Of a stretch of 37,648 nt of DNA, positions 12,859 through 16,862 are shown one piece after another. A program made the translations under genes and the position numbers. The stretch covers positions 1 through 37,648 of the forward strand of contig JAITSO010000045.1 of the NCBI GenBank assembly GCA_031287735.1, in the 5' to 3' direction. Within the stretch, counting starts at the first letter, position 1. Every line of letters begins with the position of its first letter. The notes beneath the pieces were generated by a model, which had not been told where the DNA came from, did no database searches, and worked only from the letters and a program-made list of their open reading frames with translations. The DNA is from Elusimicrobiota bacterium (GTDB lineage Bacteria; Elusimicrobiota; Endomicrobiia; Endomicrobiales; Endomicrobiaceae).

Positions 12859-13713
12859 TTAGTAGTCATTTACAAAGTAAAAGTTCCAATTTTTTTTTGA
12901 AAGTTCACATTTCAGATTTTCTTTGTTTTCTGGAGCGTCGTAAATCCCAAAAACAGCAGAACCAGAACCAGACATAAAGCTTGCACAATTTAAGTTTTTT
13001 AAATAGTTTTTTATTTCTAAAATTTCCGGGTTATCGTTAATAACGAATTCTTCTAACCTGTTAAAACATAGACTGTCGGCTTTTTGTTTATCGAACAATC
13101 CAAATTCAATGGCTTCTTTTATTTTATTTATGTTTTTACTGCAGGAAAGTGGAAATTTTATCTTTTTATAAATGTTGGTAGTGGCAATTGCAAAATTGGG
13201 TTTTACTATGACGGCATTTAAGTTTTTTAAAGGTTTTAAAGGTGTTATTTTTTCGCCTATTCCTTCACAAAGAGCTGTGGAACCTGTTAAGAAAAAAGGA
13301 ACATCAGCACCAATTTTTGCGGCTATCTTTTCTGACGTTTGTTTTTCTGCTTCTATATTCCAAAATTTTTGAAGACCTAAAATAACACTAGCAGCGTCTG
13401 ACGAACCTCCGCCAAGACCGGCACCTGATGGAATATTTTTTTTTAAAATAATTTTAATGCCTTTATCTATTTTAAAAAACTCTCTAAAGAGCTTTGCCGC
13501 TTTATACGCAAGATTACTTTCGTCATCAGGTATTTTGTCTTGCTTTGCGTAGACGTTAAGTGAAATTCCACTGTTTTTTGGTTCAAAAACAAGTTCATCA
13601 CATAAGCTGACAGTTTGCATAATAGTCTCTAAATTATGGTAGCCGTCGGGTCTTTTGTTTTTTATTTCAAGAAAAAGATTGACTTTAGCAGGTGCTTTTA
13701 ATGTTAATGACAT
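12859..13713 (-). CDS. ispE: 4-diphosphocytidyl-2-C-methyl-D-erythritol kinase
   Basis: IspE phosphorylates CDP-ME in the non-mevalonate isoprenoid pathway. It is a GHMP kinase: APAKVNLFLEI at the N-terminus with Lys10, RPDGYHNLETIMQ, the ATP loop PSGAGLGGGSSDAA near residues 94-107, and the C-terminal motif MSGSGSAVFGIY. 284 residues is typical. GAGG lies 7 bases before the ATG. First gene of the operon ispE-ABC-trpB-lnt. Its upstream side faces the repeat array, with a possible promoter at 13737-13766. Together with ispA at 35573 it shows isoprenoid precursors are made by the MEP route. Confidence 0.95.
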   Translation of the reverse strand: MSLTLKAPAKVNLFLEIKNKRPDGYHNLETIMQTVSLCDELVFEPKNSGISLNVYAKQDKIPDDESNLAYKAAKLFREFFKIDKGIKIILKKNIPSGAGLGGGSSDAASVILGLQKFWNIEAEKQTSEKIAAKIGADVPFFLTGSTALCEGIGEKITPLKPLKNLNAVIVKPNFAIATTNIYKKIKFPLSCSKNINKIKEAIEFGLFDKQKADSLCFNRLEEFVINDNPEILEIKNYLKNLNCASFMSGSGSAVFGIYDAPENKENLKCELSKKNWNFYFVNDY

Positions 13714-13736
13714 TTAAAATCCTCAAACATTTTTGC

Positions 13737-13766
13737 ATTATGCAGGATTTTATTTATTTTTTCCAA
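13737..13766 (-). promoter_or_regulatory. Possible promoter for the ispE operon
   Basis: On the minus strand TTGGAA (13766-13761) and CATAAT (13742-13737) are 18 bases apart, with a start expected near 13730, about 16 bases before the ispE ATG. The -10 box lies within the odd palindrome TGCATTATGCA. It is the only promoter-like pair between ispE and the repeat array. Confidence 0.4.
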
Positions 13767-13800
13767 ATTTGCAAAAGTGTAGCGTGTAGAAATTTCCTTA

Positions 13801-13981
13801 TTTTTTAATTCCCACTTTTATTGAAGGGATGGATAGTGTTGTTATTCCCACTTTGTTAAAGGGTCGGCGGGTTGTGGGGTTTTATTCCACATTTTTTAAT
13901 TCCCACTTTTATTGAAGGGATGGATAGTGTTGTTATTCCCACTTTGTTAAAGGGTTGGCGGGTTGTGGGTTTTATTCCACA
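13801..13981. repeat. Two tandem copies of a 91/90-bp unit
   Basis: Copy one spans 13801-13891 and copy two 13892-13981. They differ by about one substitution (TCGG versus TTGG) and one deleted G. Each reads TTTTTTAATTCCCAC, TTGAAGGGATGGATAGTG, TTATTCCCACTTTG, GGCGGGTTGTGGG, TTTTATTCCACA. The third start of the unit at 13982 diverges into the 49-bp core of the first inverted element. Confidence 0.9.
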
Positions 13982-13987
13982 TTTTTT

Positions 13988-14135
13988 AATTCCCACTTTA
14001 TTAAAGGGGGTGGTCGCGATAGCGGCCGGGGGTTTTAAAACCTATTAATTTAACGTTTACTTATAAATTAAAATTTAGGTTCGAAAACCCCCGGCCGTGC
14101 GTAGCCCGCCCACCCCCTTTAAAAAAGGTGGAATT
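13988..14135. repeat. Long inverted-repeat element 1
   Basis: Left arm 13988-14036 (AATTCCCACTTTATT... to ...GGCCGGGGGTTTT) is an imperfect inverse of right arm 14084-14135 (AAAACCCCCGGCCG... to ...AAGGTGGAATT). The arms are about 50 bases and flank an AT-rich centre of 47 bases (14037-14083) which has its own short inverse pair, AACCTA/TAGGTT. The whole could fold into a long hairpin or cruciform. Confidence 0.85.
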
Positions 14136-14252
14136 AAAGGCTTGCGGCTTCCCTTTAGAAAAAAGGTGGAATTAAAGGCGAGGTGGAATTAAAGGCTTGC
14201 GGCTTCCCTTTAGAAAAAGGTGGGATTAAAGTCGAGGGAGATTAAAGACGGG
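14127..14252. repeat. Short tandem units, block 1 (GCTTGCGGC variant)
   Basis: Units start GGTGGAATTAAAGG and continue CTTGCGGCTTCCCTTTAG plus A-run, at 14127 and 14182, with a 17-base short form (starting 14165) between them. A degenerate copy follows (GGTGGGATTAAAGTCGA from 14219). The units are copies of the outer end of the inverted element's right arm. Confidence 0.8.
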
Positions 14253-14311
14253 TTGTTATTCCCACTTTGTTAAAGGGTTGGCGGGTTGTGGGGTTTTATT
14301 CCACATTTTTT

Positions 14312-14466
14312 AATTCCCACTTTATTAAAGGGGGTGGGCGCGATAGCGGCCGGGGGTTTTAAGAACTATAGATTTAACGTTTAGTTATAAAATTATATGA
14401 AAAGCTGAAAATTTAGGTTAGAAAACCCCCGTCCTATCGGACACCCCCTTTAGAAAAGGTGGAATT
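14312..14466. repeat. Long inverted-repeat element 2
   Basis: Left arm 14312-14360 matches element 1's 49-base left arm except for one base (GTGGG versus GTGGT). The right arm 14422-14466 is shorter and carries a different inner hairpin, GTCCTATCGGAC. The AT-rich centre of 61 bases shares TTTAACGTTTA and AATTTAGGTT with element 1. A 56-base lead-in (14256-14311) matches that of elements 1 and 3. Confidence 0.85.
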
Positions 14467-14620
14467 AAAGGCTTACGGCTACTCTTTAGAAAAGGTGGAA
14501 TTTACGGCGAGGTGGAATTAAAGGCTTACGGCTTCCCTTTAGAAAAGGTGGAATTTACGGCGAGGTGGGATTAAAAGAGCTTACGGCTTCCCTTTAGAAA
14601 AGGTGGAATTAAAGGCGGGG
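14459..14620. repeat. Short tandem units, block 2 (GCTTACGGC variant)
   Basis: Three long units carrying GCTTACGGCT and CTTTAGAAAA alternate with 17-base forms GGTGGAATTTACGGCGA, giving a 53-base higher-order period. All copies here read CTTAC where block 1 reads CTTGC, so each block has been homogenised or expanded separately. Confidence 0.8.
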
Positions 14621-14622
14621 TG

Positions 14623-14757
14623 TTATTCCAACTTTATTGAAAAGATTGGCGGGGTTGTGGGGGTTTATTCCACATTTTTTAATTCCCACTTTATTAAAGG
14701 GGGTGGGCGCGATAGCGGCCGGGGGTTTTAATATCTATAGATGCTAGCGTTTAGTTA
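14623..14757. repeat. Element 3: left half only, abutting the TPR gene
   Basis: Lead-in 14623-14680 and left arm 14681-14729 match elements 1 and 2; the 49-base arm is identical to element 2. Similarity to element 2's centre continues (CTATAGAT, then CGTTTAGTTA) to about 14757 and then stops. No right arm follows. The TPR gene's stop codon at 14751-14753 is within this element. Confidence 0.8.
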
Positions 14758-16862
14758 AGTATCTGAAAAGAATTTGCACCGTTTAAATTTATTTTGATGT
14801 CCTCGCCAGAGATGTCAATTGTGATTTTTGACGGGATTTTGTGGATGAAAAAAGTATTATGACTTTTTATTGAAACGGTTATGCCATCTTGTGCGAACTC
14901 TTCAATTAACGCTGTTTCTGAATTTAAAATAAGTTTTGCTCCGTCTATTTCGTAAATCATTTTACCATCTTTTATTTGTGCTTGCGTTTGATAAAACTTT
15001 TCATAAAAATTCTCATCTATAATTTTTGTGACTTTACGTATAAAATTTATGATTTCAGGTTGTATTTTGTTTTCAATAGCTTTAGGGTAAAACTCAATAT
15101 TTCCTTTTTTTATAGATGCAGTAATTCCACTTAAAACAAATAAATTAGGTAGGTCTACAACCATTTCTTTTTCTTTGTTGTAAGAAAAATTTAGAAGAAG
15201 CTTTTTGCTAAAAAGACCAGAATGGACTTTTGCTGCATAACTCGTTTTGAAATTTGGGGTTCTTGTAAAGTTTCCATAGCTTCTTAAAATCATTTGTTTT
15301 GATAATTCCTGTGTAGGAATTTTTTCCTGAATGTTTTTTAATTTAGCTTTAAGTTTTTTGTTTGGAGAAATGTCGTAGGCAAAAGCATAATTTCTCCAAG
15401 CGTCTATATCTTTAGATAAAGCGGCATGAGTGTCACCTAGTAGTTCATAGACAACATTTATTGTCATTATGTTTGCTGCAGTAACAAAAACTTTTTGTGC
15501 ATCTAAAAATTTTGCCTGCTTGAAATAGAGTTTACCGAGAGAAATCAAGTAAAAGATATTTTTTGGCTCCAAATTTATAGCTTGAATAAAGAGTTGTTCT
15601 GCTTCAAAAAATTTTATTTCATTTTTAAAATAAATTTCGCCTAATAAATTTATGGCTTTGGCGTTCGTTTTGTTTTTTTCTATAGCTGTTAGAATAGAGA
15701 TTTCGGCATTTTTGAAATTTCTGAGATTATCGTAAGCAAACCCAAGAAAATAGTAAGCGTCTGAAAAATCAGGCGACAATTCCACGGTTTTATTAAAACA
15801 TTGAGCAGCTTTTTTATATTTTTTCCAGTCTAAATAGTTAAGACCCATAGAGTAATAAATGCCAGAATTTTCAGAATCGGCAGAAGCAGCTTTTGTAAAA
15901 AATTTTTCTGCTTTAGAGTATTTTTTTAAAAGAGCATTGCAATAGGCAAGCTTGGTAAGAACTGTAGGATTGGTTTTTTCTTTTAACATAACTGTTTGAT
16001 ACTCGTCTATCGCTTTTTTTGTTTGACCTGAATTTTCATATATTTGTCCAAGCCACAGTGCTGCAGTGTTGTCATCTGAAATTTCTTTTTTAGCTTTTAA
16101 AAAGTTTTCTTCAGACTTTTCCATGTCGCCTGCAGTAAAATAAGCTTTGCCTAAATACAAAAAAGCGTAAGGATTGTCTGGGTATATTTTGGCGTATTTT
16201 TGGCATTCCAGTAAAACTAAATCGTATCTTTTTTCGGATTCGTAAATTCTTGCCTTTGCAAGATATGCGTCTAATAAATCAGGGTTCATTTCTATAATTT
16301 TGTCATAAGAGTTTAATGCTGCTTTTGTCATATTGAGTTTTTCTTGAACTAATGCCAGCTGGAAATAAGCCGCTATATTGTCTGGTTGAGTTTTTAAAAA
16401 ATGTTCCCAATGTTTTTTTGCTTCTTTTAGTTTATTGTCTTGCTGATAATAGACGGCAAGGCAGGCTTCTGCTGTTTCGTCTTCTGGGTCAAGCTTTAGG
16501 GTCTTTTCCCAAAAAATTCTTGCTGTGTCATTTTTTTTTGCAAATGCGTAAAACTGTGCTAAAAAAGAAGTGGTTTTTGAATTTTTACCGTCTAACTCAT
16601 CAATTTTTTCAGCAAGCTTAAAAGACTTCTCTTCCTTTTTTAGTTGCCAATAGATATAAAGTAAATCTTTATAAACTGGTAAAGCGTTTTTATCAAGGGA
16701 AATTGTTTTTTCGTAATCTTTTACAGCCTCATCAAAATTTCCTTTTTTTAAAGAGATGGTTCCACGTAAAAACGTTTTGTACGCGGGAGTATTTAATGCG
16801 AGAAGTTTGGAATTTTGAAACAAGAACAAAAAAACTAAAAATAAAATTGTAAAATTTTTCAC
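14751..16862 (-). CDS. Exported TPR-repeat protein
   Basis: A 703-residue protein with a signal peptide (about 1-22, ending at LLALNTPAY) and around a dozen tetratricopeptide repeats from about 30 to 500, for example YFQLALVQEKLNMTKAALNS and YYFLGFAYDNLRNFKNAEIS. The last 170 residues are a different, beta-rich domain (MVVDLPNLF, IKDGKMIYEIDG, KITIDISGEDIKINLNG) that may resemble lipoprotein-carrier folds. TPRs scaffold protein complexes; a periplasmic or outer-membrane assembly role is inference. Start GTG 16862 has GAGG 8 bases upstream and overlaps the rimI stop as GTGA. The last codon and stop come from repeat element 3, so the native C-terminus may have been altered. Confidence 0.85.
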   Translation of the reverse strand: MKNFTILFLVFLFLFQNSKLLALNTPAYKTFLRGTISLKKGNFDEAVKDYEKTISLDKNALPVYKDLLYIYWQLKKEEKSFKLAEKIDELDGKNSKTTSFLAQFYAFAKKNDTARIFWEKTLKLDPEDETAEACLAVYYQQDNKLKEAKKHWEHFLKTQPDNIAAYFQLALVQEKLNMTKAALNSYDKIIEMNPDLLDAYLAKARIYESEKRYDLVLLECQKYAKIYPDNPYAFLYLGKAYFTAGDMEKSEENFLKAKKEISDDNTAALWLGQIYENSGQTKKAIDEYQTVMLKEKTNPTVLTKLAYCNALLKKYSKAEKFFTKAASADSENSGIYYSMGLNYLDWKKYKKAAQCFNKTVELSPDFSDAYYFLGFAYDNLRNFKNAEISILTAIEKNKTNAKAINLLGEIYFKNEIKFFEAEQLFIQAINLEPKNIFYLISLGKLYFKQAKFLDAQKVFVTAANIMTINVVYELLGDTHAALSKDIDAWRNYAFAYDISPNKKLKAKLKNIQEKIPTQELSKQMILRSYGNFTRTPNFKTSYAAKVHSGLFSKKLLLNFSYNKEKEMVVDLPNLFVLSGITASIKKGNIEFYPKAIENKIQPEIINFIRKVTKIIDENFYEKFYQTQAQIKDGKMIYEIDGAKLILNSETALIEEFAQDGITVSIKSHNTFFIHKIPSKITIDISGEDIKINLNGANSFQILN

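Follow-up and report, generated by a model that had tools for sequence, protein, structure and literature searches.

A locally duplicated repeat array in an Endomicrobia-related genome, best read as non-autonomous DUF559-associated elements with proposed triplex-type ends

Intrastrand-triplex motifs of the BoxC/PIT/TM type were described by Holder et al. 2015 (PMC4666352) in E. coli and in more than 260 bacterial genomes, using a motif search that permitted turns of 1-6 nt. The triplex was shown in vitro for the E. coli motif, while in vivo footprinting at an E. coli site saw no triplex. The same work linked the motif to genomic instability and reported no association with mobile elements or with the functions of flanking genes. 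Hundreds of bacterial genomes are reported to contain triplex-forming repeats, for which neither a mover nor a role is known. The second system relevant here is the DUF559 family of Vsr-like nucleases (PF04480), whose E. coli member YcjD is listed as a predicted nuclease in PMC1189080. Terminal repeats at DUF559 genes are not mentioned in the passages of PMC12308824 and PMC12907096 considered, subscription papers and preprints lying outside the scope of this comparison.

Here, we analyzed an array of hairpin-forming repeats in a 37,648-nt stretch of Elusimicrobiota DNA (contig JAITSO010000045.1, hereafter the window). The array lies between ispE (12859-13713) and a gene for a TPR protein (14751-16862), and since both genes are co-directional on the minus strand, it is located downstream of the TPR gene and upstream of ispE. 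An earlier note, made from the letters alone, had described a GC-rich, self-similar array, and our measurements agree, with a GC content of 42% against 33% for the window. The three 49-base cores it reported are present at 13988, 14312, and 14681, the first differing by one base from the other two, and two of them pair with inverted right arms (13985-14021 with 14102-14138, and 14309-14336 with 14442-14469). TRF likewise recovered the 91-bp and 53-bp tandem units. The predicted strong folding was borne out for element 1, of which 149 nt folded as single-stranded DNA reached -48.1 kcal/mol (z = -8.8 against shuffles); for the ends taken separately the effect was smaller, with z between -3.7 and -0.7. 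The coordinates of all features are collected in the table.

Table. Features of the repeat array (window coordinates; LE, left end; RE, right end)
Feature	Position	Strand	Basis or content
Whole array, interval between TPR gene and ispE	13801..14757	.	repeated l-hairpins, [LE-RE], r-hairpins
Element 1, complete non-autonomous (LE, AT-rich centre, RE)	13985..14138	+	inverted arms; DNA fold z = -8.8
LE1 pyrimidine arm CCCACTTT	13992..13999	+	sequence
LE1 purine arm AAAGGGGG; one A.G mismatch against pyrimidine arm	14003..14010	+	sequence, fold
LE1 turn hairpin TGGTCGCGATAGCGGCC	14011..14027	+	foldable turn sequences genome-wide
LE1 tail GGGGGTTTT, putative third strand of the triplex	14028..14036	+	own-end tails; code test in relatives
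31-nt AT-rich centre; site of DUF559 gene in autonomous-type relatives	14045..14075	.	
RE1 tail AAAACCCCC, reverse complement of GGGGGTTTT	14084..14092	-	sequence
RE1 turn; sequence differs from LE1 turn	14093..14112	-	sequence
RE1 outer hairpin CCCCCTTTAAAAAAGGTGG	14113..14131	-	sequence, inverted arms
Element 2, complete non-autonomous; LE2 14309-14371, RE2 14405-14469	14309..14469	+	inverted arms; DNA fold
LE3, lone left end, truncated at TPR gene 3' end	14678..14735	+	
91-bp tandem units; two left-type outer hairpins per unit, without tail	13800..13984	+	TRF
55-bp units, right-type outer hairpins	14126..14237	-	inverted arms, TRF
53-bp units, right-type outer hairpins	14457..14622	-	inverted arms, TRF

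The repeats belong to a genome-wide family. A 174-base query returned 135 BLAST matches in this 1.36-Mb genome, and a 20-mer core pattern allowing up to two mismatches matched 127 times (71 + 56), with no match in a reversed control. The core is therefore not confined to this locus, and the suggestion that a family of non-autonomous palindromic repeats has expanded in place agrees with what we found: inverted LE/RE pairs, spread through the genome and clustered by tandem duplication. In the stretches around the matches, we counted about 46 clusters, distributed over some 33 contigs; many lie at contig ends, suggesting that the repeats break the assembly. Within clusters, the order of units is regular, namely left-type hairpins, LE, RE, and right-type hairpins, repeated as l*[LE RE]r*. 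Outside this genome, any match to the family was found in 4 of 60 relatives, and many matches (28) only in one of them, which belongs to another genus of the same family. The outer left flank of the window array (13736-13812) is common, over 77 bp at 96% identity, to an array on contig C52 (L079:4497-4573), so copying once went past the repeats; as a general array terminus this flank was rejected, being common only to the C52 array.

Each end is laid out as a pyrimidine arm, a loop, a purine arm, a hairpin turn, and a G/T-rich tail, and an LE and an RE in inverted orientation around an AT-rich centre make up the core of an element. In this genome, the ends present an outer hairpin, then a second hairpin whose sequence varies widely, and finally the tail; of 102 ends, nearly all have a tail in which a G-run leads into a T-run. 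The 51 distinct turn sequences have a median identity of 52%, and for 29 of them folding is more stable than in 95% or more of their own shuffles, with a combined p of 1e-27 that is optimistic, as the turns share ancestry. Pairing in the turn is kept while its sequence turns over. With up to one mismatch allowed, LE1 (13992-14036) fits the triplex layout with its single A.G mismatch. Its turn of 17 nt lies outside the ITxF rule of 1-6 nt, and hairpin turns occur in nearly all ends of the genome; the ends are consequently filed as a variant of the BoxC/PIT/TM motif and not as strict members. On this sequence evidence, we propose that they represent a hairpin-turn variant of the intrastrand-triplex motif. 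Among ends flanking DUF559 genes, turns measured either 2-6 nt or 11-32 nt and none fell at 7-10 nt. A stem of 4 bp or more is present in two thirds of the long turns, compared with 11% of shuffles, as expected for a linker that closes a triplex at its base. Of 27 strong turn hairpins in these ends, 15 have C-GNA-G loops, triloops known to be unusually stable in DNA. Palindromy extending outward past the ends was not significant (p = 0.15).

The tails of the own genome vary uninformatively, and the covariation of stem and tail comes from relatives, whose ends read as a CCCC-stem, loop, GGGG, turn, and GGGG-tail. Mutual information between stem and tail positions lies mainly on the diagonal. 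In DUF559-flanking ends, 94% and 92% fit the mapping C to G and T to T or A at stem positions 2 and 3, compared with 72% and 55% of shuffled ends, and none of 2000 shuffles reached the observed value at either position; over all parsed ends, the fit was 84% and 83% against 64% and 55%. Since the rule was first noticed in the sequences on which it was tested, the class-genome list below included, and these are related and their counts not fully independent, the figures give its strength there and not an independent confirmation. In class genomes, 67 of 68 ends among the matches listed fit the code, a list that covers eight genomes, leaves out most same-sequence repeats as well as the matches in G050, G045, G048, and g7, and, with the last base of the search pattern fixed as A or G, tests C to G against T to A only. 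The association also held within single genomes among the matches listed (p = 3e-6 for G021, 0.03 for G026, 0.008 for G030, and 0.009 for G032), whereas mixing of LE and RE types inside one element, considered as a lineage-free test, yielded four cases that were uninformative. The same mapping, C to G and T to T or A, characterizes an antiparallel third strand of the purine motif (reverse-Hoogsteen). The triplet list of PMC4666352 (GGC, TAT, AAT) agrees with it. At the level of sequence, stem and tail co-vary as a reverse-Hoogsteen triplet code would predict.

The ends are associated with a gene. The own genome encodes one good DUF559 protein of 117 aa (E = 9e-23 to PF04480), a relative of PDB 3hrl (E = 2.5e-11). 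Its gene (C15:1006-1308) abuts an array, following an RE and right-type hairpins only, and has no LE-RE bracket. The closest DUF559 protein among those compared, 64% identical, is encoded in the relative G009 between an intact LE and RE, and short standalone DUF559 genes in class genomes are mostly flanked by inverted repeats. We examined a set of 80 loci in named genomes that was collected by protein similarity alone (alignment A2, as A1 was too diverse). Among the 70 loci tested, which span over a dozen phyla, 59 had a left-right inverted similarity above the 99th percentile of the controls (1,938, drawn from the same contigs), with medians of 22 and 9 for loci and controls (p = 3e-40). In a gene-matched control at one fixed cut-off, 57 of 70 loci but only 1 of 160 other same-contig genes lay between inverted ends (p = 5e-40), and both flanks carried the outer hairpin motif at 56 of 73 loci, compared with about 2% of single control windows that had it; in reading these values, the loci are related by descent, and flank length (250-300 nt), hairpin pattern, cut-offs, and end parser were chosen on viewing the data, with more than one variant run. 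Across 96 class genomes, DUF559 and the end pattern co-occurred (counts 8, 9, 8, and 71; p = 0.001, using a cut for a strong DUF559 match that we chose), with 9 of 17 end-pattern genomes lacking a strong DUF559 match and 8 of 16 DUF559 genomes lacking the exact end pattern. In E. coli, a motif identical in sequence to TMECO no. 9 lies 168 bp downstream of the DUF559 gene ycjD. Matches spanning ycjD (at least 80% of the query) were found in 3,364 of 5,426 E. coli genomes, and the three loci examined that lack ycjD carry other genes in its place. From these arrangements, we propose LE-DUF559-RE as the candidate autonomous form, and our best reading of the array in the window is a set of non-autonomous, locally duplicated DUF559-associated elements.

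Two individual loci are worth recording. In Sphingomonas parapaucimobilis (L208), sufB and sufC have between them a DUF559 gene whose inverted ends are near-perfect, and in Neisseria gonorrhoeae (L205), the triplex-type motifs around the DUF559 gene are direct and not inverted.

DNA methyltransferase genes are also often found beside the arrays. In the own genome (G000), they lie within about 500 bp of arrays in 6 of 21 loci against 3.4% expected (p = 5e-5), a count made by eye on loci that are not independent and that involve four paralogues. The contigs concerned are C7, C16, C26, C48, C60, and C42 (L052, L057, L061, L075, L085, and L070), and on C60 and C7, the methyltransferase gene sits between two arrays. 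In Caulobacter, according to PMC12907096, the DUF559 protein VsrA is responsible for DNA-damage signaling when a solitary cytosine methyltransferase is removed, which suggests a possible methylation link for DUF559 nucleases.

The terminal inverted repeats suspected in the earlier note are present, but no target-site duplication accompanied them in 53 DUF559-bearing relatives (own score 1.94 against 1.77 for cross comparisons, p = 0.22), a result that lends no support to a conventional transposase element. E. coli loci with TM pairs vary in length, but clear junctions or a clean empty site were not found. These two results lead us to infer that DUF559 might cut folded single-stranded ends, with copying left to host repair. 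In our main reading, to which we assign a probability of roughly 60%, the array consists of locally duplicated non-autonomous elements with triplex ends, the autonomous form is LE-DUF559-RE, the nuclease cuts the folded ends, and the host copies them. An end exposed as single-stranded DNA, for example at replication forks, would fold into a hairpin, whereupon the downstream G/T tail would bind the purine strand as an antiparallel intrastrand triplex with a hairpin in its turn. DUF559, a Vsr-like nuclease of the PD-(D/E)XK type, would recognize and cut such folded ends on its own element and on non-autonomous copies. The cut copies would then be placed elsewhere by host repair or copying, and duplication in place would generate the regular clusters. 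More tentatively, and at somewhat less than even odds, BoxC/PIT/TM motifs and their hairpin-turn relatives in general may be the ends of pan-bacterial mobile elements whose sole gene is a Vsr-like DUF559 acting on triplex-folded single-stranded ends.

A serious rival, although in our judgment an unlikely one, is that triplex repeats spread by replication slippage and recombination, the DUF559 genes being merely captured or tolerated. The tie between the motif and genomic instability without a mobile element (PMC4666352), the absence of a gene from most repeat copies, and the lack of target-site duplications in the 53 relatives would all fit such passive spread, which is difficult to reconcile with DUF559 genes lying between inverted ends across phyla at 57 of 70 loci while 1 of 160 other same-contig genes does so. 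It is less probable still that DUF559 serves as a repair or control nuclease resolving the element's obstructive folds, the pair persisting as an addiction-like or tolerance unit and not as a mover. Its Vsr-like fold and the role of Caulobacter VsrA in the SOS response upon loss of a solitary methyltransferase, as given in PMC12907096, are consistent with such a function, which by itself would not account for how numerous and dispersed the LE-RE pairs are.

Palindromic, intergenic, and clustered repeats in inverted pairs also recall the ordinary REP/BIME elements that a RAYT (Y1) transposase mobilizes; here, the gene linked to the ends is a Vsr-like nuclease and what defines the ends is their triplex-coded tail, making this assignment highly improbable. 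Slighter again is the chance that the repeats work at the RNA level as terminators or mRNA stabilizers. The array is intergenic and hairpin-rich with co-directional genes on either side, as such a role would have it, but an Rfam search of the window at the gathering score returned tRNAs elsewhere only and no match in the array, the turn loops are often of the DNA-type C-GNA-G triloop, and the E. coli PIT elements are reported to have neither promoter nor terminator activity (PMC4666352). Mobility driven by DUF559 remains our preferred reading. If true, it would define an unusual class of mobile element recognized by DNA shape and provide a natural system for triplex biology; a steady partner nuclease and an internal stem-tail code make the candidate mover directly testable, including in E. 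coli through ycjD.

Compared with known systems, the elements resemble MITEs in being short, non-coding, and present in many copies with terminal inverted repeats, but differ in that no target-site duplication was found in the 53 DUF559-bearing relatives and no transposase was identified. With REP/BIME and RAYT and with IS200/IS605, they share hairpin ends for which a role in single-stranded form is proposed, whereas the nuclease fold differs and the tail here is triplex-coded. The YcjD-type Vsr-like nucleases are represented by the gene of the own genome. The present elements have in common with BoxC/PIT/TM repeats the pyrimidine arm, loop, purine arm, turn, and G-rich tail with GGC/TAT/AAT triplets, the intergenic position, the many copies, the inverted pairs of unlike member types, and the frequent single stem mismatch. 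Relative to that motif, the family is set apart by a DUF559 link absent from PMC4666352, by a second turn that is a variable hairpin, by an AT-rich part of the stem, and by the ordered clusters of left-type hairpins, LE-RE pairs, and right-type hairpins.
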